Under the pieces are notes generated by a model. The model saw only the letters and a program-made list of their open reading frames with translations. It searched no databases and was not told the origin of the DNA. Positions 17,896 to 40,401 of a stretch of DNA of 64,000 bases are shown here, in pieces. The position numbers and the translations under genes are program-made. The DNA is from a virus: positions 1 to 64,000 of the IMG/VR virus record IMGVR_UViG_3300035183_000720. One strand, 5' to 3'. Every line of letters begins with the position of its first letter. Position 1 is the stretch's first letter.

Positions 17896-18549
17896 ATGAA
17901 ATTATCTAAGCAAACTGTTGAAGTATTGAAGAATTTTAATGGCATCAACCAAGGTCTTCTTTTCCGTAAAGGTAATGTGATCAGAACTATGAGCGTCATG
18001 AAGAACATTTTTGCCACTGCCGTTGTTGCGGATGAATTTCCAAGGGATTTTGCGATTTATGATTTGAGCGAATTTTTATCGACAGTAAGTCTTTTTAATG
18101 ATCCTGAGCTTCAGTTCAAGGATGAATATTTCGTCATTTCTGAAGGTAATATGAGGGTTAAATATTTCTACAGCAACTCAAGTGTAATTGTAAGCCCTCC
18201 TGATAAAAATATTGCTATGCCAACGCCTGATGCGACTTTTACGATAACTAAGTCGCAGTTAGAGCAGATCTTGAGAGCAGCTGCGGTGATGAAGTTGAAG
18301 GATTTTGCAGTGACTCAGGAAGGATTGAAAGTTTTTAATCGCAGTGGTGTTGGAAATGAATATACGATTGAGATGCAAGTTGAATCTGATGATGTTGTTT
18401 TTGAATATATACTAAAAGTTGAGAATCTCAAGTTGATTCCAACTGATTATGAGGTTGCGATGACGAAGAAAGGTATTGCACAATTCAAAGCAGAAGCCAC
18501 TAAAGAAACTCCCAGCCTCGAATATTTTGTTGCACTTGAATCTGAATAA
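17896..18549 (+). CDS. 45: Sliding clamp (gp45-like)
   Basis: Trimeric DNA clamp that tethers polymerase and, in T4, also activates late transcription through gp33/gp55. 217 aa versus 228 in T4. It has the typical opening (MKLSKQTVEVLKNFNGINQGLLFRKG-like start at residues 1-26) and the late FTITKSQLEQILRAAAVMKL segment. First gene after the consensus promoter. ATG follows TGGAGGATTCAA. Confidence 0.93.
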   Translation: MKLSKQTVEVLKNFNGINQGLLFRKGNVIRTMSVMKNIFATAVVADEFPRDFAIYDLSEFLSTVSLFNDPELQFKDEYFVISEGNMRVKYFYSNSSVIVSPPDKNIAMPTPDATFTITKSQLEQILRAAAVMKLKDFAVTQEGLKVFNRSGVGNEYTIEMQVESDDVVFEYILKVENLKLIPTDYEVAMTKKGIAQFKAEATKETPSLEYFVALESE

Positions 18550-18566
18550 CTGATTGAGGTAATACT

Positions 18567-19514
18567 ATGTCTGAACGTGAAGAGTTTTTATGGGTCGAAA
18601 AGTATCGCCCTCAAAAAATCGCTGATTGTATCTTACCTGATCGTTTGAAGGATTATTTCATTAGTATGGTCGAAAAAGGTGAGCTACAAAATATGCTCTT
18701 GGTCGGAGGACCAGGGACAGGTAAAACTACCGTCGCAAGAGCGCTTTGTAATGAGTTAGGTCTGGATTATTTGATGATCAATGCCTCTGAGAATGGTAAT
18801 ATTGATACATTACGTACAACTATTCGTAGTTTTGCTTCAACTATGTCATTTACGAGTAGTTATAAGGTGGTAATTCTTGATGAGGCAGATTATCTGAATC
18901 CTAATTCAACGCAACCTGCACTTCGAAACTTCATTGAGGAATTTAGCAAAAATTGTCGTTTTATTATGACGGCAAATTATGCTAATCGAATTATCGATCC
19001 TTTGAAGAGTAGATGTGCGGTGGTTGATTTTCATTTTTCCAAGGAAGAGAAACAAGAGATGGTCATTGCTTTTGATCGTCGTGTCAAAGAAATTCTCGCC
19101 AAGGAAGGCGTTGAATTTGATAAGAAAGTACTTGCGCAAATACTCGTTAAGTACTTCCCAGACTTTCGAAAGATTCTGAATGAACTTCAGCGTCATTCAT
19201 CTGGTGGAGTACTTAAGAATACGGTTCTTACTAGCTTAAGTGATGATAATATTCGAAAGCTTTATGGTTATCTTCGTGATACTAGTAAGTGGCCAGAAAT
19301 GCGTAAGTGGGTGGCTGATAATTTAGATAATGATTTTAATCTTATTTGTCGAGCTCTTTATGAGAAAGCTGATGAGTATGTGAAACCAGGTAGTATTCCT
19401 CAACTGGTTTTGACTCTAGCCCAGTATGATTACAAGAACAGCTTCGTGATGGATAAGGAAATCAATTTAGTGGCAATGTTAACTGAAATCATGGCACAGG
19501 TGGAATTCAAATGA
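18567..19514 (+). CDS. 44: Clamp loader large subunit (gp44-like AAA+)
   Basis: ATPase subunit that opens gp45 and loads it at primer ends. WVEKYRPQKI near residue 9, Walker A GGPGTGKTT near residue 47, Walker B ILDEADYL near residue 105 and the SRC sensor (LKSRCAVVDF) near residue 148. 315 aa, as in T4 (319). Ends coupled to gene 62 by a 4-bp overlap. Confidence 0.95.
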   Translation: MSEREEFLWVEKYRPQKIADCILPDRLKDYFISMVEKGELQNMLLVGGPGTGKTTVARALCNELGLDYLMINASENGNIDTLRTTIRSFASTMSFTSSYKVVILDEADYLNPNSTQPALRNFIEEFSKNCRFIMTANYANRIIDPLKSRCAVVDFHFSKEEKQEMVIAFDRRVKEILAKEGVEFDKKVLAQILVKYFPDFRKILNELQRHSSGGVLKNTVLTSLSDDNIRKLYGYLRDTSKWPEMRKWVADNLDNDFNLICRALYEKADEYVKPGSIPQLVLTLAQYDYKNSFVMDKEINLVAMLTEIMAQVEFK

Positions 19515-19897
19515 GTGAAAAATTAGGTTTGTTTGATATCATCAACAATATATACGAGAAGAAAGGAGGATTTCTTTCTTCGGATGAGCTGAAAAGTTAT
19601 CAACCGTATATGGTGAATCGAGCTCTTAGTCAGCACAGGGATTTGGTTTTTTTGGCTAACGAGCTAAATAGCTTGTATAATATTGATAAAGACATGCATT
19701 ATGCGTTTTTGTACTATGGCGTACCGAAAAAACGACGTTATGGTAAATGGGCTAAAAATGAGGATGACAAGGATAAGATTGCTGTGATTCAAGAGTATTG
19801 TAGGTATTCTTACCGCCGAGCTAAAGAGGTTTTGCCGATGTTGGTTGATAAAATCTCTGAACTTGAACAAAAACTAAAAAAAGGTGGAAAAAAATGA
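19511..19897 (+). CDS. 62: Clamp loader small subunit (gp62-like)
   Basis: Non-ATPase clamp-loader subunit that forms the 4:1 complex with gp44. Recognised by position between 44 and regA and by NNIYEKKGG, SYQPYMVNRALSQHRD, the DKDMHYAFLYYGVPKKRRYGKWAK core and a basic C-terminal helix. At 128 aa it is shorter than T4 gp62 (187). Overlaps both neighbours by 4 bp. Confidence 0.88.
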   Translation: MSEKLGLFDIINNIYEKKGGFLSSDELKSYQPYMVNRALSQHRDLVFLANELNSLYNIDKDMHYAFLYYGVPKKRRYGKWAKNEDDKDKIAVIQEYCRYSYRRAKEVLPMLVDKISELEQKLKKGGKK

Positions 19898-21423: not shown

Positions 21424-21876
21424 TCATTCATCAGGATTATCAATTTTCGAAGCACGAAAACGTTTTCTTCTTTTTGGTGCTATTTCTTCGCAATCTTCAT
21501 CAGCATATTCTTCAGTTACATAAGTTGGTTGTTTTTTTGTTTGGAATGCGTTATATTTGTGCTTTATCCATTTATTAGCGACAGCATTGCTGGCAACAAC
21601 GCCAAGATATATCAGCCAGATCATTTCAAAAGAATCTGGAGTAGTAGTACTGAATAAATTCAAGCTGAGAAAGGCAAGTGTCGCGGCAAAATATGCCACG
21701 TTGCTCCAGAATTTAGTATGACTTAGATGACTAGATGCTTCATCTCTAAAAAGTTCAGTCATATCTATTTTTTTGCCCAATTTGAGCATTACTATGAATA
21801 AAGTTATGAGAAACAGTGATAAGAAAGCGAAGCTTACTATTTTGAATGAATCCGTTAGAAGATGGCTAAAGTCCAT
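21424..21876 (-). CDS. Three-helix membrane protein (holin-like candidate)
   Basis: 150 aa with three hydrophobic helices: ~12-31 (IVSFAFLSLFLITLFIVML), ~57-77 (WSNVAYFAATLAFLSLNLF) and ~83-104 (MIWLIYLGVVASNAVANKWI). A charged tail follows (EDCEEIAPKRRKRFRASK). The helix count and size resemble 3-TM phage holins and gene-transfer-agent holin families, but I cannot confirm this. It is a lone minus-strand gene inside the plus-strand replication block, and its start is 12 bp from the divergent gene 43 start. The ribosome site is weak. Confidence 0.6.
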   Translation of the reverse strand: MDFSHLLTDSFKIVSFAFLSLFLITLFIVMLKLGKKIDMTELFRDEASSHLSHTKFWSNVAYFAATLAFLSLNLFSTTTPDSFEMIWLIYLGVVASNAVANKWIKHKYNAFQTKKQPTYVTEEYADEDCEEIAPKRRKRFRASKIDNPDE

Positions 21877-21888
21877 GAGGGTTTACCG

Positions 21889-23361
21889 ATGAAAGAATTT
21901 TACATGTTCGCGGATGAACAAGGATCTCGTATTTTTCATCGTTATTGGGACGGTCAAGAAAGAAAAATGGAAGTTATTGATGGTTTTCCAATTGAGCTAT
22001 TTATCGAAGGTGGGCGTAAAGATGCTCGGGGCTTGAGAGGCGAAAATCTTAGTCGGGTTGAATTTACTAAGATCGATGATGCACAGGAATTCATCAGAGA
22101 GTATAAGGATATCACACCAATTCATGGTCTGACGAGTCTGGTGCATCAGTTTTTGGCTTATCGATATCCTGAGGAAATTGAATTTGATATTTCGAAGTTT
22201 GTAATAGCCAATATCGACATAGAAACTAGATTCGACAATGGATTTCCTTCTCCTGATCGGGCTGATCAAGAAATAATTTCAATTACATTGAAATGTTTCA
22301 ATGATAACAAATTTGTGAGTTGGGGCATTAAACCTTATAAAGTAAAAAATGAGAATGATGAATATGTCTTATGTGAAGATGAAAAGGATTTGCTGATCAA
22401 ATTTGTGAATTATTGGAGTCGCTTAAAACCAGATATCGTCACAGGTTGGAATATTCAAGGATTTGATATTCCTTATCTCATCAATCGCATCACTAATGTT
22501 CTAGGTGAAAAAGTTGCGGCTAAATTATCGCCTTTCAATGCCTATACTTCTAAAGTTTTTAGTGATTTTGAAATTCAAGGCGGACAAAAGAGCTATCGCA
22601 TCTTAGGCGTGACTGTATTTGATTATATTGAGTTGTACAAGAAGTTTAGTTACAAGAAACTTGAACGTTATTCTCTTGATTTTGTCTCGCATGTTGAATT
22701 AGGGGAACGAAAAGTTGATTATTCTGAGTATGGGAACCTGATGAATCTTTATAACACTAACTATGAATTGTTTATGGATTATAATATCCATGACGTACAA
22801 TTAGTTGAAAATCTTGATAAGAAACTGAACTTCATGTTCTTGGCGCTCACGTTGGCATTCATGGGGCGTGTGAGAATGAATGAAATTTTCTCACAGGTTC
22901 GATTCTGGGATATGTTGGTGTGTAACAAACTTCGTCAAGAAGGAATTCAGGTCCCTCCGCATATCCGAAGAAAGGGTTCGGGGGATATTGAAGGTGCTTA
23001 TGTAAAAGACCCTGTGCCTGGTTTATACAAATGGGTGGTAAGTCTCGACTTGACTTCTCTGTACCCATCTATTATGATGCAATACAACTTATCTACAGAG
23101 ACAGTCGTCGATCCCGCTACTGGTAATTTGGTTGATAAGTTGCTTGATATGTCTTATGATACAGGTTTTTTAAAAGAAAGAGACCTAACTATGACAGCCA
23201 ATGGCGCGACTTTTACACGCAAATTCAAGGGTGTGATGCCTCGTTTAGTTGAAGCAATGTTCAATGACCGCAAGAAGTACAAGAATATGATGCTTGATGT
23301 CAAGCGTGAAATAGAAGCCATCAAAGTTGAGATGGACAAACGAGGCTTGAAATATGAATGA
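21889..23361 (+). CDS. 43: DNA polymerase N-terminal part (gp43A: exonuclease, palm motif A)
   Basis: N-terminal half of a family B polymerase split in two genes. The start at 21889 gives MKEFYMF, like T4 gp43 MKEFY, with a GAGGGTTTACC site; an in-frame ATG at 21862 lacks support. It has exonuclease motifs NIDIETRFDNGFPSP (~residue 105), WNIQGFDIPYLINR (~190) and YNIHDVQLVENL (~300). Polymerase motif A SLDLTSLYPSIMMQYNLS lies near residue 395. It ends in the fingers helix after NDRKKYKNMMLDVKREIEAI. Motifs B and C are on the next gene, which overlaps by 8 bp in another frame. The two products must assemble to act. Confidence 0.93.
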   Translation: MKEFYMFADEQGSRIFHRYWDGQERKMEVIDGFPIELFIEGGRKDARGLRGENLSRVEFTKIDDAQEFIREYKDITPIHGLTSLVHQFLAYRYPEEIEFDISKFVIANIDIETRFDNGFPSPDRADQEIISITLKCFNDNKFVSWGIKPYKVKNENDEYVLCEDEKDLLIKFVNYWSRLKPDIVTGWNIQGFDIPYLINRITNVLGEKVAAKLSPFNAYTSKVFSDFEIQGGQKSYRILGVTVFDYIELYKKFSYKKLERYSLDFVSHVELGERKVDYSEYGNLMNLYNTNYELFMDYNIHDVQLVENLDKKLNFMFLALTLAFMGRVRMNEIFSQVRFWDMLVCNKLRQEGIQVPPHIRRKGSGDIEGAYVKDPVPGLYKWVVSLDLTSLYPSIMMQYNLSTETVVDPATGNLVDKLLDMSYDTGFLKERDLTMTANGATFTRKFKGVMPRLVEAMFNDRKKYKNMMLDVKREIEAIKVEMDKRGLKYE

Positions 23362-24574
23362 TCTTTCAAAGCTTTCAAATGAAGAATTATTGGCTTTATA
23401 CAAAGAAAAGAAAAACAGAGAAGCGACTTACGAAGCCATGCAAATGGCCTTGAAAATTACTTTAAATTCATTGTATGGCGCACAAGCAAATGAACATTTC
23501 CGTTATTATTCTACGGATATCGCAGAAGGTATTACATTAACAGGTCAATTTACCATTCGGTATATTTCGAATGTTTTGAATGAATTTTTAAATAAGAAGT
23601 TGAAGACAGATGGGGTTGATTATGTAGTTGCAAATGATACAGATTCTGCATACATTCGTCTTGATACTCTAGTTGAAAAGATTGTGCCTAAAGACACTCC
23701 AATTCAAAAAATTGTTGATTTTCTTGATAAATTTGTCTCAACTGTACTCGAACCATTGATCGCTGAAAAATTTGAAGCTTTGGCTGCTTACATGAATACA
23801 CCTGAAAACAAGATGCATATGAAACGGGAAGCCATAGCTGACCGCGCTATTTGGAGAGCTAAGAAGAATTATATTTTGCAAGTTTATGACAATGAAGGCG
23901 TTCGGTACAATGAGCCGAAGTTGAAGACAGTTGGAATCGAAACAGCAAGGTCTAGTACACCGGAGCTAGTTAGAAAAGCTTTGGAGAAATCTCTTCTCAT
24001 ATTGTTGAATGAAGATGAAGGGGATCTTCATACATTCGTGAAAGAATTTCGCGAGACATTTATGAATGCACCTGTTGAGGATATTGCATTTCCTCGTGGG
24101 GTAACAGATTTGGATAAGTGGGTAGATCCGACTGGACGAGAGTCATGGAAATTAGGCGCCCCAGTACATGTCAAAGCCTCGTTAGTTTATAATGAGCGAT
24201 TGCGAACGACTGGATTGATTAAAAAGTATCCTGTGATTAAGAATGGGGATAAGATCAAGTTTGTGTATCTCAAACAACCCAATCCTGTTAGAAATAATGC
24301 TATTGCATTCACCGATGTTTTTCCACCTGAGTTTGAGATGGATGAGTATATTGATCGGGAACTTCAGTTCGAAAAGACATTTCTTGAACCACTTCGTAGC
24401 TTCACAGACATCATTGGCTGGCAAACTGAGAAGGTTAACACCTTGATGGATTTTTTCAGCGAAGAAGGTCCAGTGACGCAAACGAAGGCGTTGACAACCT
24501 CAAAAGAGTCTGTTAAAATTAATAAACAGCCTGCTGGTAAGCAGACACGCGTGACATTGGAATCATTCTTTTAA
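23354..24574 (+). CDS. 43: DNA polymerase C-terminal part (gp43B: fingers, palm motif C, thumb)
   Basis: C-terminal half of gp43. The ATG overlaps the end of gp43A as ATGAATGA. After ~30 charged residues come motif B ALKITLNSLYGAQANEHFRYYS (~residues 32-53) and motif C VANDTDSAYIRLD (~92-104). The thumb follows, with NYILQVYDNEGVRYNEPKLKTVGIE and a C-terminal tail RVTLESFF that resembles the clamp-binding tail of T4/RB69 gp43. Split gp43 genes are known in some Aeromonas T4-like phages. Here no inserted endonuclease remains between the halves. A sequencing frameshift is possible but less likely given the paired stop/start. Confidence 0.92.
   Translation: MNDLSKLSNEELLALYKEKKNREATYEAMQMALKITLNSLYGAQANEHFRYYSTDIAEGITLTGQFTIRYISNVLNEFLNKKLKTDGVDYVVANDTDSAYIRLDTLVEKIVPKDTPIQKIVDFLDKFVSTVLEPLIAEKFEALAAYMNTPENKMHMKREAIADRAIWRAKKNYILQVYDNEGVRYNEPKLKTVGIETARSSTPELVRKALEKSLLILLNEDEGDLHTFVKEFRETFMNAPVEDIAFPRGVTDLDKWVDPTGRESWKLGAPVHVKASLVYNERLRTTGLIKKYPVIKNGDKIKFVYLKQPNPVRNNAIAFTDVFPPEFEMDEYIDRELQFEKTFLEPLRSFTDIIGWQTEKVNTLMDFFSEEGPVTQTKALTTSKESVKINKQPAGKQTRVTLESFF
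24491..24519 (+). promoter_or_regulatory. Sigma70 promoter for uvsX, inside gp43B
   Basis: Perfect TTGACA (24491-24496), a 17-bp spacer and TAAAAT (24514-24519), about 70 bp before uvsX and within the 3' coding end of gp43B. Confidence 0.7.
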
Positions 24575-26225: not shown

Positions 26226-26897
26226 ATGAGCTTCCAGAAAACAAAAATCGATGCATCTCTTGGTCTCCGCGTTAATCAGTACTTATCTGATATTGGAGTT
26301 CAGACTCCTTTGAAAGATAACGGATTGACAAATCAGCAAAAAATTGATATAATTGAAGAGAAGGTCAAGGAAATTTTAGAGACATTAGGGCTTGACTTGA
26401 GTGATGATAGCCTAGCAGAAACACCCCGTCGTGTTGCGAAGATGTTCGTGAATGAGATTTATTGGGGATTAGATCCAGAAAAATTTCCCAAATGTACACT
26501 AGTAGAGAATAAGATGAGATATGATGAAATGGTGATTGAGCAAAATATAAAAGTAATGTCTGATTGCGAGCATCATCTGAGACCGATTAGTGGCGTTGCT
26601 CATGTCGCTTACATCCCTAAGGATAAAGTGCTCGGTCTGTCTAAAATGAATCGCATCGTAGAATATTTTTCTCGGCGTCCTCAGATTCAGGAACGATTAG
26701 CCGAGCAAATTTACCATGCTCTTTCTTTTATTCTAGGAACTGAAGATGTGGCGGTTGTAATTAAAGCGGAACATTTCTGCGTGAAGCAACGAGGTGTGGA
26801 AGATCAGAACAGCTATACCGTGACGAGTAAATTAGGTGGTAAGTTCTTAAAGGATCCTACAGTTCGTGCCGAGTTTATGAGTATCATTCATTCGTGA
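26226..26897 (+). CDS. folE: GTP cyclohydrolase I (FolE)
   Basis: Converts GTP to 7,8-dihydroneopterin triphosphate, the first step to 7-deazaguanine (preQ0). Key residues: zinc/catalytic DCEHHLRP near residue 116, LGLSKMNRIVEYFSRRPQIQERL near residue 138, and EHFCVKQRGVED near residue 183 with the second zinc Cys. 223 aa, typical of FolE type I. AAAGGAGAAATAA site. First gene of the run folE-queC-amidotransferase-dpdA-queE. QueD is not in this window, so that step may be done by the host enzyme or an outside gene. Confidence 0.95.
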   Translation: MSFQKTKIDASLGLRVNQYLSDIGVQTPLKDNGLTNQQKIDIIEEKVKEILETLGLDLSDDSLAETPRRVAKMFVNEIYWGLDPEKFPKCTLVENKMRYDEMVIEQNIKVMSDCEHHLRPISGVAHVAYIPKDKVLGLSKMNRIVEYFSRRPQIQERLAEQIYHALSFILGTEDVAVVIKAEHFCVKQRGVEDQNSYTVTSKLGGKFLKDPTVRAEFMSIIHS

Positions 26898-26905
26898 GGT
26901 GAACA

Positions 26906-27637
26906 ATGAAAGAGATGTTTTTGAAAGAATTCCCTGAAGCGTCTAAAGCTGTGATAGTGATGAGTGGCGGCATGGATAGTGCTATCGCGGCTCGTTTAAC
27001 GGTTGAAAAATTAGGCACCGAGAATGTTCACGCTCTCAGTTTCTTCTACGGCCAGAAGCAGAGCATCGAGCTCGAGAAGGCCCAGATCAATTCGAAGAAG
27101 CTAGGCATCGCAAAACACACAATCGTTGATATTTCTTTTCTTGGCGACATGGTGCGCGGCGTAAGTTCTAATATTTCTGGTGGGCTCGAAATGCCTACGA
27201 TTAAGGATATTCTCGGTGATCCACAGCCTGTTACTTATGTTCCGAATCGTAATGCTATTCTGCTCATGATTGCAGCGAGTTATGCTGAAGCGAATGGAAT
27301 CGATCTGGTTGTGACGGGGTTGCAAGCACAAGATGAGTATTCATATTGGGATACGACTCCTTCGTTTGTTTCCGCAGTCAACAATCTACTTTCACAGAAT
27401 CGTCAGAAGAAGATTCGTGTTCATGCTCCTTTCATGGGTAAGAACAAAGCAGAAGAGTTGAAGCTTCTTCAGGAGCTCGATGGTAATGTAGATTTGACAA
27501 AAACTACTATTACTTGTTATAATCCTGCTGGTGATGTGAGTTGCGGTAAATGTCCTAGCTGCGCTGAGCGGATCGCAAATTTCAAGAAAGCAGGCTTGGT
27601 TGATTCGATTAAGTATGCAATTGATATTCAATGGTGA
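26906..27637 (+). CDS. queC: 7-cyano-7-deazaguanine synthase (QueC)
   Basis: ATP-dependent conversion of 7-carboxy-7-deazaguanine to preQ0. PP-loop SGGMDSAIAARL near residue 20, YVPNRNAILLMIAASYAEA near residue 113, GLQAQDEYSYWDT near residue 138, and the zinc-binding Cys set CYNP...SCGKCPSC near residues 211-228. Starts 8 bp after folE with GAGGTGAACA. 243 aa, normal length. In some phages QueC is fused to an amidotransferase; here that domain is the next separate gene. Confidence 0.95.
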   Translation: MKEMFLKEFPEASKAVIVMSGGMDSAIAARLTVEKLGTENVHALSFFYGQKQSIELEKAQINSKKLGIAKHTIVDISFLGDMVRGVSSNISGGLEMPTIKDILGDPQPVTYVPNRNAILLMIAASYAEANGIDLVVTGLQAQDEYSYWDTTPSFVSAVNNLLSQNRQKKIRVHAPFMGKNKAEELKLLQELDGNVDLTKTTITCYNPAGDVSCGKCPSCAERIANFKKAGLVDSIKYAIDIQW

Positions 27638-27648
27638 GGAGCTAATAG

Positions 27649-28263
27649 ATGTGTGGCATATTTTGTAGTTTTGAACGTGATAAGCTCATTGAGCTTTCGA
27701 AACTGAACAGTTACCGAGGAAGTCATAGTTTCAGTTTTATGCGAGTTGGTGATAGCCCGATACGAGGCCTCGGTAAATTTGATACTTCATTGGCTGATCA
27801 AGAAGGATATAAAATTTGTCATGTTCAGGCGCCAACAACGGAAGTGCGTGATGCTTCTAGCATTCATCCCGCAGAATATCCAGGAGTAAGACTTTGGCAC
27901 AATGGCATCGTGAAAGATTTTGATGTTAGGCGACTTCAAGAAAAGCACGGTGTAAGTGAAGCATGGGACACGAAACTTATTTTGCTTGAATTGTTAGAGG
28001 ATAATTGGCTTGAGAATTTAAGTGAAATAAATGGTAGTTTTGCTTGCGTCTTTCAAGAAGATGATATGCACTATGTTTTCAGAAACGAGATTTCGCCTTT
28101 GTTCTTCGATTATGATCTCAATATAAGTAGTGTACGTTTTGAAGGATCTTTTTCTTTGCCTCCCAATAAAGTTTTCATTCTTGATTTAGAAAACAGGGAA
28201 CTCTCAGAAACAGAATTCGAATTTTCGACTAAAGAAAATCCCTACTACTTTGGGGGCGTGTAG
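27649..28263 (+). CDS. Class II glutamine amidotransferase (stand-alone Gat of Gat-QueC type)
   Basis: An N-terminal-nucleophile amidotransferase: MCGIF exposes catalytic Cys2, with YRGSHSFSF (RG motif) near residue 21, the oxyanion HNG motif (WHNGIV) near residue 84 and WDTKLILLELL near residue 104. It follows queC by 11 bp. In phages such as 9g a Gat domain fused to QueC is linked to making deoxyarchaeosine (dG+). A separate gene here could donate ammonia to the preQ0 nitrile to give the amidine (G+), but that is inference. Directly abuts dpdA. Confidence 0.82.
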   Translation: MCGIFCSFERDKLIELSKLNSYRGSHSFSFMRVGDSPIRGLGKFDTSLADQEGYKICHVQAPTTEVRDASSIHPAEYPGVRLWHNGIVKDFDVRRLQEKHGVSEAWDTKLILLELLEDNWLENLSEINGSFACVFQEDDMHYVFRNEISPLFFDYDLNISSVRFEGSFSLPPNKVFILDLENRELSETEFEFSTKENPYYFGGV

Positions 28264-29574
28264 ATGAAACTCAGATATGTTTTCAGTGCTCCAGGTATGT
28301 TTTCTTTAAATTCCTGTGGTCGGGAGATGGATAATCCCGAGGAGTATATTAAATTCGCTGAGATGGTAAAAGAAGGTGTAGATTTAATACGCACTGACAT
28401 CAATAAAAAAATTGATGGCGTAAAATTTGGCATGGATGTTTTGTTTAATGCTTTCACCGAAAAGCATGTTGGCGAATGGCTCCGTAAATATGGCACTTTC
28501 GGTTTTGAGAAATTATATGCAGACTCAGGCGGTCTACAGATTGTGACATTAGGTAAGCAAATTGATGATGAGATGAAGTACAAAATCTATGGCACACAAA
28601 GTTGTGCTGATTTTGCGATGTGTTTTGATGAAATTCCTGTGAGAGTTGTTAATGCTTTTGATTCTAAAAGCAATCGCACTGTTATAGGAAACAGACTTTA
28701 TTATCCCAGTCTCAAGAAAGAATCAGCCATAAAAACTGCAAATAATATCAAAGAACAGATTGAGATTCTTGACAAATTTAAAACTGACACATTGGTTCAT
28801 TATATTGTGCAGGGCAATAATCATCAGGACATGTATGAGTGGTTTGATGATGGCGCTAGAATTCTAACCGATAAACATTTTGAAAAGATTGGCGGCGTTT
28901 CTATAGGATTTGTTTGTTTAGGTAATGGGCAATTAGAATCTATAGAAATGCTTGTTGGTTATCATAGGATTATGAAGGATTTTGGTATTGAAAAAACTAA
29001 GAAACATGTTCATTTATTAGGATTTGGGAGTGTGAAACGTTTGCTGCCAGTTTTATACATTATGAAAAGTAAATTACTTCCTGATGATCTTACAATCAGT
29101 TTTGATAGCACTTCTTTTAGTATGAGTTACATAATGGGTCGATTCACGGACGATGAAGGTAAAGAAGTTGGAAAAGATCCAGAAGATGTAAGGAGAATGT
29201 TTGAAAAAGTTTACAATTATTTTCAAGACATATACCATAAGCATGTCCCCAATCTAGACAAAGAAAGATTCATTGATCATCTTGTAAAAGAAGTTCGTAG
29301 TATTGCCAATACGATTAACAATGCCCCAGACGATATAAGACCTGTTGTCCATGCCAATACTGTATTGACTACTTGTTGGCAACTTGTTGGATTTGCCGAA
29401 CAAGTAAAAAGAATTTTACAAAAAGCAGAAAATGATAATTCTCCTTTAGGCATGATTAAACATGTAAAAGATTTTAATGATTATGAAGCCTGGTATCGCG
29501 AATTCGGAAAATTTGTTAAAAGTAATAGAGTCAAGCGAGAGAGTTTTGTGACGCTTGACAGTTTCTTTGAATAA
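28264..29574 (+). CDS. dpdA: DpdA-type deazaguanine DNA transglycosylase
   Basis: TGT-family enzyme predicted to swap guanine in DNA for a 7-deazaguanine base. Typical signature YADSGGLQIVTLGKQI near residue 85 (first catalytic Asp), CFDEIPV near residue 119, GGVSIGF near residue 214 and the second Asp in ISFDSTSFS near residue 284. 436 aa. It starts right after the amidotransferase stop. The extreme C-terminus, FVTLDSFFE, nearly duplicates the polymerase tail VTLESFF and looks like a gp45 clamp-binding peptide, suggesting modification during or right after replication. Confidence 0.85.
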   Translation: MKLRYVFSAPGMFSLNSCGREMDNPEEYIKFAEMVKEGVDLIRTDINKKIDGVKFGMDVLFNAFTEKHVGEWLRKYGTFGFEKLYADSGGLQIVTLGKQIDDEMKYKIYGTQSCADFAMCFDEIPVRVVNAFDSKSNRTVIGNRLYYPSLKKESAIKTANNIKEQIEILDKFKTDTLVHYIVQGNNHQDMYEWFDDGARILTDKHFEKIGGVSIGFVCLGNGQLESIEMLVGYHRIMKDFGIEKTKKHVHLLGFGSVKRLLPVLYIMKSKLLPDDLTISFDSTSFSMSYIMGRFTDDEGKEVGKDPEDVRRMFEKVYNYFQDIYHKHVPNLDKERFIDHLVKEVRSIANTINNAPDDIRPVVHANTVLTTCWQLVGFAEQVKRILQKAENDNSPLGMIKHVKDFNDYEAWYREFGKFVKSNRVKRESFVTLDSFFE

Positions 29575-29613: not shown

Positions 29614-30507
29614 ATGAAAATTCGAACCAGTGAGGTTTTTGCAAGTTTTCAAGGTGAAGGTCCTTTCGCGGGGGTGCCGAGTTTGTGGGTTAGATTTTTC
29701 GGTTGTAATTTGTTGTGCAATGGTTTCGGTCAGAAAGATCCTTGTAATCCTGAAACTTATGTATTGCCATACCAGACAATAGATATCAGTAACATCAAAC
29801 GCATGGAAGATCTTCCCGTGTTTGAATATGGCTGTGATTCGAGTTATAGTTGGAGTCCGAGATTCAAACACTTAGCTAGAGATTGGGATGAAAAAGAATT
29901 GGTTGATGAATTATATCGTCTCGGTGTTGAACGTTTTGGGATGGCTGAAGGTTGGTTTAATCAAAGAACTCTTCAAGAAATTCAACTTTGTTTCACAGGC
30001 GGAGAACCGATGCTCCAGCAGAGAGCTATGATGGCTATTCTTGCTGAAGCCAATGAGAGATTCGGAGCTTCGGGCCCTAAACTTGTCACGATTGAAACTA
30101 ATGCCACCAGATTTCTAACTGAAGATTTTAAGAAATTTCTTTATGATAGAGATTTTGAATTAACTATTGCCTGTTCTCCGAAATTATTCACGGTAAGCGG
30201 AGAAAAGAATGCAGTTCGTTTAGATGTCATTAAAGAATATATGCATTATGCTGACACGGGTATCTTGAAATTTGTAGTGAATGGTACTAAGGAATGTTGG
30301 GATGAACTTGATAGCTACACGGATAAATTAGCTGAGCTTGTTAGCGAAGATAGATTCTGGAGCCTTTGGGTGATGCCTGTTGGGGCAACTAAAGAACAGC
30401 AAGAATCGCCGAGTATAGCAGAGATTGCCAATGAGGCAATGCGCCGTGGATTTTATGTTGCGACACGTAATCATACTTATGTTTACGGTAATGTTGTGGG
30501 TAGCTGA
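29614..30507 (+). CDS. queE: 7-carboxy-7-deazaguanine synthase (QueE, radical SAM)
   Basis: Converts carboxy-tetrahydropterin to 7-carboxy-7-deazaguanine. SEVFASFQGEGPFAGVPSLWVRFFGCNLLC opens the protein as in QueE (residues 5-35). The iron-sulfur Cys motif is unusual: after C-x3-C the third expected Cys (as in CDSSYSW) comes about 40 residues later, following an insertion. Then ELVDEL, LCFTGGEPMLQQ near residue 127 and the SPKLFTVSGEK segment. 297 aa. Overlaps gene 41 by 1 bp. Confidence 0.9.
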   Translation: MKIRTSEVFASFQGEGPFAGVPSLWVRFFGCNLLCNGFGQKDPCNPETYVLPYQTIDISNIKRMEDLPVFEYGCDSSYSWSPRFKHLARDWDEKELVDELYRLGVERFGMAEGWFNQRTLQEIQLCFTGGEPMLQQRAMMAILAEANERFGASGPKLVTIETNATRFLTEDFKKFLYDRDFELTIACSPKLFTVSGEKNAVRLDVIKEYMHYADTGILKFVVNGTKECWDELDSYTDKLAELVSEDRFWSLWVMPVGATKEQQESPSIAEIANEAMRRGFYVATRNHTYVYGNVVGS

Positions 30508-31883
30508 TGGATGTCACAAGTGAGAAGCTCATCTTAAGTTCTTTAGTTCAAGATGAAGATTATGTACGTCAAGTATTACCATTCTTAAAGAACGAATATT
30601 TCAACGATAAAGTCGAAAGAGCAGTTTTTGAAACTATTCGTTCGTATCTTCTAGAATACAATACCCTGCCCAATAAAACTACTCTGTTGGTTGACATTCG
30701 CAATCATGATGGTCTAAATGAAAAGGAGATTACCGAAGCCGAATCTATCATTCGTGATATTTTCAGAATTGAACGTCCAACTGATTCCAAGTGGCTGATT
30801 GAACAAACAGAAGAGTTTTGTAGAACGAAAGCCATCTACAATGCCATCGTGAAGGCAATTTCAATATATGATGGTACTGACAAAACCATGACTCCACATG
30901 CCATTCCTGATATGATAAAGGAGGCGGTGAGTGTAAGTTTTGATAGCCACATAGGCATGGACATATATGATGATGCAGGGATTCGTTATGATTATTATAC
31001 ATTACCAGAAAGTAAGATTCCTTTTGACATTGATCTATTGAATGATATTACAAATGGTGGAGTCGGTCGAAAGACATTGAATGTTGTTGTCGCAGGGGTG
31101 AATGTTGGTAAGACTTTGTCTCTGATACATTTTGCTTGTGCTTATGCTCGGGCAGGTTACAATGTGCTTTATTTCACTTTGGAGATGCGAGAGGAAGAGA
31201 TCTTGAAGCGAATGGATGCTAATATGTTGAAAATTTCAATTAATGAATTAGGTAAATTAGGACGCGAAACGTTTATTGATGAGGTTGAGAAACTTCGAGC
31301 GAAATCTTATGGTAAAATAAAAGTAAAGGAATATCCTCCAGGTTCAGCGCATGCGGGCCATTTCAAGCATATCATCAATGAATTGAAATTAAAACAACGT
31401 TTCATTCCTGATGCCATCATAGTGGATTACATTGGAATAACAGGTAGTTCAAGGATAAGAGCAGGTCAACAGAATAGTTATTTTTATTTGAAGGCTGTGG
31501 CTGAAGAATTGCGCGCTTTGGCTGTCGAAACTAACACCATTCTTTGGACAGCAATGCAACTAACTCGAAGTGGCATAACAAACACAGACGTAGAAATCAC
31601 TGATGTTTCTGAGTCGATGGGTATTCCAGCAACTGCAGACTTCATGATATCTGTTACTCGAACAGAAGAATTGGATGGCTTAGGACAAGTACTTTTCAAA
31701 CAGCTTAAGAATCGTTATGGTAATAAATCGAATAGGTTGAGATTTGTAGTAGGTGTCGATCTAGATAAACAAACACTATATAATGTCAGTAGCAGTGAAC
31801 AAGATGATATAATTGCTCAAGAAAGAATAGTAACTAATACGGCTAGTCTGAAAGAGAAATTCAAGCAGCTGAATGGTGATTGA
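30507..31883 (+). CDS. 41: Replicative DNA helicase (gp41-like, DnaB family)
   Basis: Hexameric fork helicase that pairs with primase gp61. N-terminal helical domain, Walker A AGVNVGKTLSL near residue 186, YFTLEMREEEILKRMDANM near residue 210, Walker B AIIVDYIGI near residue 303 and the arginine-finger/H4 region. 458 aa, T4-like (475). Starts on the last base of queE. A late box for the next gene overlaps its stop. Confidence 0.95.
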   Translation: MDVTSEKLILSSLVQDEDYVRQVLPFLKNEYFNDKVERAVFETIRSYLLEYNTLPNKTTLLVDIRNHDGLNEKEITEAESIIRDIFRIERPTDSKWLIEQTEEFCRTKAIYNAIVKAISIYDGTDKTMTPHAIPDMIKEAVSVSFDSHIGMDIYDDAGIRYDYYTLPESKIPFDIDLLNDITNGGVGRKTLNVVVAGVNVGKTLSLIHFACAYARAGYNVLYFTLEMREEEILKRMDANMLKISINELGKLGRETFIDEVEKLRAKSYGKIKVKEYPPGSAHAGHFKHIINELKLKQRFIPDAIIVDYIGITGSSRIRAGQQNSYFYLKAVAEELRALAVETNTILWTAMQLTRSGITNTDVEITDVSESMGIPATADFMISVTRTEELDGLGQVLFKQLKNRYGNKSNRLRFVVGVDLDKQTLYNVSSSEQDDIIAQERIVTNTASLKEKFKQLNGD

Positions 31884-39144: not shown

Positions 39145-40401
39145 ATGAAACAACTCTGCGCTTACAAATACCGAATTTATCCGACGGAAGAACAACAAGT
39201 TCTTCTGTCTAAAACCTTTGGTTGTAAGCGCATGATCTATAATTATTATCTCGAAGTACAGCAAACCAGATTCAAAAATAAAGAACCTCTGTTAAGTCAT
39301 TTCGACATTAATAGGGATATCACTAAACTGAAAAAAGAAAAGGAATGGCTGCGTGAAGTTGACTCAAATGCCCTATTAGCGGCAGCAGCAGATTTATGGT
39401 CCGCTTTTAATAATTTCTTCAAGTCGATCAAAGGTAGGAGAAAAGGTCCAAAGGTATCTCCTCCAAAGTTTAAGACTAAGAAATCTCGCCAGTCGTATCG
39501 AACAGAATATGTTCATATCAATGATGACGGAACAATACATATTCCAAAACTGAAAGCCGTCAAAGCAGTTATTCACAGAAAAATTCCAGAAGGCTCGATA
39601 ATCAAATCAGCCACGATTTCAAAAGACCCAGATGGAAGATACTATGCGTCAATTCTGGTTGAAACAGAAGTAGCTTTAAAACCGATGACAGGTAGAGAAG
39701 TTGGTTGTGATCTGGGTCTCAAGGATTTATTCATCATGTCGAACGGATTGAAATTCAAGAAGCCTGATGATTTACCGAACATTGCGAGAACCAAGCAATT
39801 GTTGAAATTGAGACAAAAACAGTTCGCGAGAACTGTCAAAGGCAGCAAAAATCATGAATCTCTGAGGCTTCGAGTAGCACGTTTGTACTCGAAATTAACA
39901 AGACAAAGAAATGAGTATTACCATTTGATTAGTAGATTCTTAGTTGATAATTATGATTCCATCTATCTTGAAGACTTGTCGAGTAAGAACATGCTACAAA
40001 ACAAGAAGCTGAGTAGGGCAATTCATGAAGTAGCATGGTCAACCTTAGTGAGAATGATCGAATACAAATCGTCCTGGTATGGTCGAACATTCCATAAGAT
40101 TGATCGTTGGTATCCGTCAAGCAAGACTTGTTCTTGTTGCGGTCATGTACTTGAGAAATTAGATCTCGACATAAGAAAATGGACTTGCCCTGCTTGTAAT
40201 GAACACCATGATCGAGATGTCAATGCTGCCAAGAACATTCTCCGTATCGGTCAAACAGACTGCTACGGAGGACCTATGAAGTCGCAGACGACAGGCGACT
40301 TGGGACTAGAAATCCCAATGGCCCTTCAGAAAATGATCGTTAAAACCGAGAGGTCTGGCGTATCTTCGCCAGTTGATCATGGGAGGGGGCAAGCTGCATG
40401 A
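39145..40401 (+). CDS. tnpB: TnpB RNA-guided nuclease (IS605 OrfB family)
   Basis: Programmable nuclease ancestral to Cas12; cuts DNA matching a guide encoded past the element's right end. N-terminal YKYRIYPTEEQQ, RuvC Asp in VGCDLGLKDLF near residue 189, Glu in IYLEDLSSKNM near 276, a four-Cys zinc finger (CSCCGH...CPACN) near 331-352, and the last Asp in HDRDVNAAKNIL near 358. The triad is intact. 418 aa, normal length. No TnpA neighbour. The 3' end probably also encodes the guide RNA scaffold. Confidence 0.93.
   Translation: MKQLCAYKYRIYPTEEQQVLLSKTFGCKRMIYNYYLEVQQTRFKNKEPLLSHFDINRDITKLKKEKEWLREVDSNALLAAAADLWSAFNNFFKSIKGRRKGPKVSPPKFKTKKSRQSYRTEYVHINDDGTIHIPKLKAVKAVIHRKIPEGSIIKSATISKDPDGRYYASILVETEVALKPMTGREVGCDLGLKDLFIMSNGLKFKKPDDLPNIARTKQLLKLRQKQFARTVKGSKNHESLRLRVARLYSKLTRQRNEYYHLISRFLVDNYDSIYLEDLSSKNMLQNKKLSRAIHEVAWSTLVRMIEYKSSWYGRTFHKIDRWYPSSKTCSCCGHVLEKLDLDIRKWTCPACNEHHDRDVNAAKNILRIGQTDCYGGPMKSQTTGDLGLEIPMALQKMIVKTERSGVSSPVDHGRGQAA

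Follow-up and report, generated by a model that had tools for sequence, protein, structure and literature searches.

A putative gp45-type clamp-binding tail on the phage DNA-guanine transglycosylase DpdA2 that co-varies with the polymerase tail

It is not well understood how phages complete the modification of their DNA in time to escape restriction while wasting no precursor on the DNA of the host. The locus described here raises the question of why a DNA-modification enzyme ends in the same way as the DNA polymerase of its own genome. The window, i.e., the whole stretch of 64,000 nucleotides that was analysed, comes from a virus record of 67,143 bases and takes up most of it. It carries a T4-like replication cluster (gp45, gp44, gp62, regA, split gp43 and uvsX), and uvsX is followed by folE, queC, a glutamine-amidotransferase-like gene, dpdA, queE and a gp41-like helicase gene (Table 1). 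The genes of preQ0 synthesis, FolE, QueC and QueE, are in the same cluster as dpdA, which lies among the replication genes, between those of the polymerase and the helicase, as it also does in Moby. The genome encodes both gp45 and its loader (gp44, gp62). The preliminary description had assigned the gp45 gene, had pointed out that DpdA ends FVTLDSFFE and gp43B RVTLESFF, and had cited the clamp-binding C-terminus of T4 gp43. The family and structure matches in Table 1 bear out the gp45 assignment. Both endings were confirmed in the ORF translations, where gp43B reads KQTRVTLESFF before the stop, and T4 gp43 does end ASLDFLFG. The family-B polymerase of the window is encoded by two overlapping ORFs (21862-24574) and is likewise split in the contigs L008, L059, L060 and L061. 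A transposase-family gene (39145-40401; PHROG 506, E=3e-120) also lies within the phage record.

Table 1. Features of the dpdA locus and of related genes; positions are those of the window unless a contig is named.
Feature	Position	Strand	Basis
gp45 sliding clamp, proposed DpdA partner	17896-18549	+	PHROG 223, E=1e-68; T4/RB69 gp45 structures, E~2e-22
gp44 clamp loader subunit	18567-19514	+	PHROG 168
gp62 clamp loader subunit	19511-19897	+	PHROG 225
gp43A, N-terminal half of split polymerase	21862-23361	+	PHROG 262 / 2062
gp43B, C-terminal half of split family-B DNA polymerase	23354-24574	+	PHROG 262 / 1918
Polymerase clamp-interacting peptide TLESFF, extreme C-terminus of gp43B	24554-24571	+	Sequence; corresponds to T4 gp43 SLDFLF
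FolE GTP cyclohydrolase I, preQ0 pathway	26226-26897	+	PF01227, E=2e-63
QueC 7-cyano-7-deazaguanine synthase	26906-27637	+	PF06508, TIGR00364 above cut-off
Class-II glutamine-amidotransferase-like protein, upstream of dpdA	27649-28263	+	PHROG 12378; weak PF13537, E=0.0045
dpdA, DpdA2-type DNA-guanine transglycosylase, 436 aa	28264-29574	+	PHROG 10773, AlphaFold2, Foldseek
Variable linker from folded DpdA body to tail, about residues 419-429	29518-29550	+	Column entropy
C-terminal clamp-interacting peptide (putative) TLDSFFE, DpdA residues 430-436	29551-29571	+	Sequence, conservation, PolB co-variation
QueE-like radical SAM protein, preQ0 pathway	29614-30507	+	PHROG 2076, E=6e-49
gp41-like replicative helicase	30507-31883	+	PHROG 19
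GT-B-like glycosyltransferases near dpdA (examples)	L002:10533-11876, L413:8634-10004, L374:8640-10004, L390:11293-12621, L134:3715-5103		

NCBIfam and Pfam contain no model matching DpdA2. Megablast of the window dpdA against phages gave no match, and a single-protein scan of viral sequences with the window DpdA gave one relative. Therefore, alignments were used as queries. The alignment of the window DpdA with its relatives recovered the DpdA2 of Vibrio phage nt-1 at 3e-141. The window protein belongs to the sequence family shared with the KVP40/nt-1 DpdA2, and it has PHROG 10773 in common with the DpdA of Acidovorax phage ACP17. The best Foldseek match of its AlphaFold2 model (mean pLDDT 91) is 7ui4, the bacterial DNA preQ0 insertase DpdA, and the model matches tRNA-guanine transglycosylases (TGT) with a Z of 18, i.e., it has a TGT-type fold. 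Judged by its family and its predicted fold, the gene product is a DpdA2; the insertion of 7-deazaguanine into DNA is inferred, without an assay. Its C-terminal end in the ORF translation is KRESFVTLDSFFE, followed by the stop. The last residues are VTLDSFFE, with the core TLDSFF encoded by 29551-29568, which is the gp45-type form, [ST]-L-[DE]-x-[FL]-F or a near form, plus one residue. In the model the body is ordered and the tail is of low confidence (pLDDT 53 for the last six residues), with a one-turn helix predicted at residues 431-434. A flexible, divergent linker to the folded body is seen both as a drop in pLDDT and in the entropy profile.

In T4, the similar C-termini of gp43, gp55 and gp33 bind gp45 and are mutually interchangeable (PMC2988020). 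The T4 polymerase peptide SLDFLF enters the gp45 pocket as a one-turn helix, and the polymerase without its last six residues loses clamp association (PMC12746103). We scanned eight proteomes (the window record, ZZ01, Moby, KVP40, pf16, X1, CP220 and T4; 1,872 ORFs) with the strict C-terminal pattern [STA][LIM][DE]x[FLM][FY], placed no more than four residues from the protein end. Only 14 ORFs matched: seven PolB, the T4 sigma factor gp55 (which ends SLDFLYEAND), four DpdA (window, ZZ01, Moby and X1), one glycosyltransferase, which adjoins dpdA in ZZ01, and one small ORF of 125 aa in KVP40. A looser pattern additionally matches T4 gp33 (TLDFLL), and so all three T4 gp45 binders with similar C-termini are recovered. 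The ligase gp30 is also a gp45 ligand. In the 67-kb record of the window, gp43B and DpdA alone fit the strict pattern. With a false-positive rate of about 1/1,800, two matches in so short a record, the polymerase among them, can hardly be accidental. On this pattern evidence, the agreement of the DpdA and gp43B tails is not due to chance.

Campylobacter phage CP220, which presumably has modified G, was tried as a test case. An alignment search found no DpdA2 relative in it and the scan found no protein with the strict tail, so that it is uninformative. A look-alike, GLEDFFV, ends a gp26-type baseplate protein of the window (PF12322; 34630-35397), after a zinc-ribbon-like CPKCG, and similar endings occur in ZZ01, Moby, KVP40, pf16 and X1. 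The presence of GLEDFF on a structural protein counts against the clamp-peptide reading, and this look-alike remains unexplained.

Viral contigs, scanned twice with alignments as queries, yielded about 160 DpdA2 loci. The preliminary description had suggested checking whether DpdA homologues keep the tail. Behind a variable linker, 87 of 115 distinct DpdA2 C-termini carry the gp45-type tail, which is still found at 25-30% identity to the window protein. The remaining 28 are without the motif, although gp45 is present in at least KVP40, 6E35 and pf16, which counts against clamp binding by the tail. Among 56 divergent tails with the consensus [ST]-L-[ED]-x-[LF]-F, 52 have L at position 2 (0.43 bits) and 55 have F at position 6 (0.13 bits). 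The column entropy is about 2-3.3 bits in the linker versus 0.1-1.3 bits at tail positions 2, 3, 5 and 6. On a DpdA tree of 60 rows, built without the tail region, the tail is present on 42 rows and absent from 18. Parsimony gives nine changes of tail presence, at least six of them on well-supported branches, and the tail was lost in several DpdA2 lineages that keep the enzyme. Tail-less lineages include KVP40/6E35/nt-1, a clade ending LPI or VTLG, and pf16 (NVTLDLMCA). DNA modification in nt-1 is very low, dPreQ0 being about 0.11% and dG+ about 0.02% of G (PMC6884629). This is compatible with a role of the tail in efficiency, but it is no proof. As for the proposed partner, gp45 was present in all eight DpdA2 records first checked and in 28 of 50 metagenomic DpdA2 contigs, many of which are fragments.

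Just two of the 115 DpdA2 tails look beta-clamp-like. A few DpdA2 (L127, L128, L133; L116) end NNQSTLFDLAG or YQEINLFDFL, nearer the beta-clamp motif, and the polymerases of L128 and L133 keep SLEDFFS despite this. The DpdA2 variants of L378, L405, L406, L414, L415 and L422 end [ST]LPE[DE]F, unlike the L405 and L415 polymerases, which end TLDDLF.

Position 5 of the tail was classed as F or non-F and counted where the PolB and DpdA tails of a genome were both readable and alignable. Genomes without an alignable DpdA tail (KVP40, pf16, L102 and others) were left out, as was L129, in which both tails are irregular. It turned out that the classes agree in 29 of 30 genomes (12 F/F, 17 non-F/non-F). 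The only mismatch is L390, whose polymerase tail, GPPQSFF, is non-canonical. After thinning to 16 genomes, eight are F/F, eight non-F/non-F and none mixed (Fisher p=1.6e-4). The PolB-DpdA similarity also exceeds that of all 20,000 random re-pairings (p about 5e-5); neither test was corrected for shared ancestry. Odd spellings go together as well: TIDDWF/SIDDWI in L111, TVDDLF/TVDSLF in L122 and TLAGLF/TLGDMF in L132. ACP17 was a prospective case, in which the DpdA tail, TLDELFE, was read first and the polymerase tail found later was SLDDLFE. On the DpdA tree the position-5 class changes six to seven times, and the supported independent pairs agree in 4/4 or 3/4 cases. Since there are only about four supported independent changes, a tree-aware sign test cannot reach significance. 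Among gp45 columns that track the F/L class in 23 sequences, we found several weak candidates and none that is convincing. For these genomes, which share ancestry, the aligned endings show that changes in the DpdA2 tail go along with changes in the tail of that genome's polymerase.

The tail has a second carrier. In 27 distinct DpdA2 loci, a gene near dpdA encodes a GT-B-like glycosyltransferase; the assignment rests on weak Pfam matches (Glycos_transf_1 / Glyco_trans_1_4) and on alignment. The gp45-type tail is present on 25 of the 27 distinct proteins, and its position 5 agrees with that of DpdA in 25/25. In ZZ01, the glycosyltransferase, DpdA and polymerase tails are all F-class. However, 24 of the 25 tailed glycosyltransferases are L-class and mostly related, which makes the agreement a weaker test than it looks. 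The protein is a candidate DNA hypermodification enzyme. Its substrate is unknown, and glycosylated 7-deazaguanine as its product is a guess. Near dpdA in L070 (13618-14280), a 220-aa protein of unknown family ends SSSLDGLFVK and is another possible clamp ligand.

PSI-BLAST started from DpdA1, the phage 9g family, does not reach DpdA2, nor the reverse (PMC6884629). A clamp-family gene (PHROG 947) lies no more than 4 kb from dpdA in 71 of 76 viral DpdA1 loci, and in 54 of the 76 it is the next ORF. This clamp is modelled with the fold of a bacterial beta clamp (Foldseek E=4e-21, TM 0.79). According to the preliminary description, the same motif on DpdA of phages lacking gp45 would have refuted clamp binding. 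We looked for the gp45-type tail in DpdA1, and none of the 61 distinct C-termini has it. Near the end of 46 of them stands Q.{1,2}[LM][FYW], as in QPELF, QQELF, QQDLF, RQRRLF and IQELF, and most others end ELF or another LF form; a closely similar pattern occurs in 1 of 611 other ORFs. The E. coli beta-clamp consensus is Q-phi-x-[LM]-[FL] (PMC11139829). VQELF, the commonest DpdA1 form, has its Q one place late by comparison, and the fit to the beta-clamp motif, as far as the letters can tell, is good, not perfect. We have shown by comparing C-termini that, in DpdA1 phages with a beta-type clamp, the gp45-type tail is replaced by one that appears beta-clamp-like. DpdA1 genes beside a beta-clamp-fold processivity factor and with Qx(x)LF ends were seen in L239-L318, in phages 9g, RHEph04, Me-ZS1 and in others. 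The DpdA of the actinophage Typha has neither tail type. A DpdA1 profile scan of bacterial and archaeal genomes gave 20 loci; LF ends are found on those most similar to the phage family and not on the remote ones.

We propose that a T4 gp45-type clamp-interacting peptide makes up the final six to seven residues of DpdA and hangs by a flexible linker behind an enzyme with the TGT fold. The tail would dock in the gp45 pocket used by the polymerase tail. DpdA would thereby be tethered to clamps loaded on phage DNA and concentrated on newly replicated, clamp-bearing DNA, to which the exchange of guanine for 7-deazaguanine would be delivered. We consider this explanation as a whole very probable. 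Clamp binding by the tail had been suggested in the preliminary description, and the comparative tests (conservation in DpdA2, co-variation with PolB and tail replacement in DpdA1) support it strongly. There are no binding data and no co-fold; physical binding is inferred, as are any benefit to processivity or timing and a preference for replicated phage DNA over that of the host.

The site of action is a separate matter. That 7-deazaguanine is installed right behind the fork is an inference, and the timing at the fork is unproven because gp45 has a role in late transcription too, away from the fork. It is quite possible, at a little under even chances, that the tail binds gp45 but DpdA rides clamps left after synthesis and modifies DNA throughout infection. 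This is a variant of the explanation proposed above, and the two do not exclude each other. It agrees with the ability of gp45 to track DNA away from the polymerase and to activate late transcription via the same kind of tail (PMC2988020, PMC7892883), and with the view that DpdA, like TGT, works by exchanging bases, in its case in DNA (PMC6884629). The position of dpdA in the replication cluster of the window and Moby points the other way, although gene position does not fix the site of action, and neither the fork nor the clamps left behind are favoured by the data.

It is also conceivable that the tail is part of the fold or of a dimer interface and is clamp-like by ancestry or chance. Inheritance within the family (87/115 DpdA2) would fit, and yet we regard this as highly improbable. 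The tail is predicted as a low-confidence extension (pLDDT 53), it is conserved while the linker is variable, and several lineages lost it and kept the enzyme. Moreover, the DpdA fold explains neither the agreement with the tail of an unrelated polymerase nor the presence of the tail on an unrelated glycosyltransferase. We cannot fully rule out recruitment to another reader of the motif, such as the clamp loader, RNA polymerase factors or the host beta clamp, given that short hydrophobic tails can be promiscuous and that the C-terminal clamp motif of E. coli Pol III alpha also binds tau (PMC11139829). We give this very little credence, since the tails of DpdA2 follow those of the polymerases with which they share a genome, the C-ends of T4 gp43, gp55 and gp33 are interchangeable for gp45 (PMC2988020), and a beta-clamp-like form is so rare in DpdA2 (2/115).

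If gp45 is the partner, a sliding-clamp tether would give DpdA access to fresh phage DNA and explain both selectivity and speed. A vague "post-replicative" step would become a defined protein contact that is testable by a short peptide or a six-residue truncation. Co-varying tails would also be a route to new clamp clients from sequence alone, for example, the putative DNA glycosyltransferase found here. Clamp tethering may even be a general rule in the way phages put 7-deazaguanine into their DNA: two remotely related DpdA families have clamp-matched tails (gp45-type in T4-like phages, beta-type in siphophages whose dpdA adjoins a beta-like clamp gene), and the tailed GT-B protein may act on the inserted base, all in one clamp-borne line. 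We incline only slightly towards this generalization.

In the literature searched (titles and abstracts, with many subscription papers outside the coverage), we found no link between DpdA and a sliding clamp. The earlier view that the coupling is undescribed holds for DpdA, but the idea is not wholly new, as T4 alpha-glucosyltransferase (alpha-GT) binds gp45 (Sommer 2004; confirmed in PMC13216743). Clamp-bound DNA modification is already known in kind; what is new is the DpdA version with a testable, widespread signature.

Like T4 gp43, gp55 and gp33, DpdA2 has [ST]L[DE]x[FL][FYL] as its very end, joined to the body by a flexible linker; those proteins are a polymerase and transcription factors, whereas DpdA2 is a base-exchanging DNA-modification enzyme. 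T4 alpha-GT, too, modifies phage DNA after replication, and it binds the sliding clamp; by analogy it is a precedent in concept for the coupling proposed here. However, it is without the C-terminal peptide (it ends EQFDIITK) and has another chemistry and another fold. Its clamp binding was judged not decisive in vivo, where promoter strength, not mainly gp45 binding, sets its share of glucosylation (PMC13216743). The DpdA and DpdA2 of 9g and nt-1 (PMC6884629) and the bacterial DpdA (7ui4) are DNA-guanine transglycosylases with preQ0 genes nearby, as in the window. No clamp coupling was found described for them in the literature searched, and the DpdA2 of nt-1 and KVP40 differ from the window protein in having no tail. 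In animals, a short peptide also tethers a DNA-modifying enzyme, DNMT1, to the sliding clamp PCNA, although the enzyme, the clamp ligand and the purpose, which for DNMT1 is maintenance methylation, are unrelated to those of DpdA and gp45.
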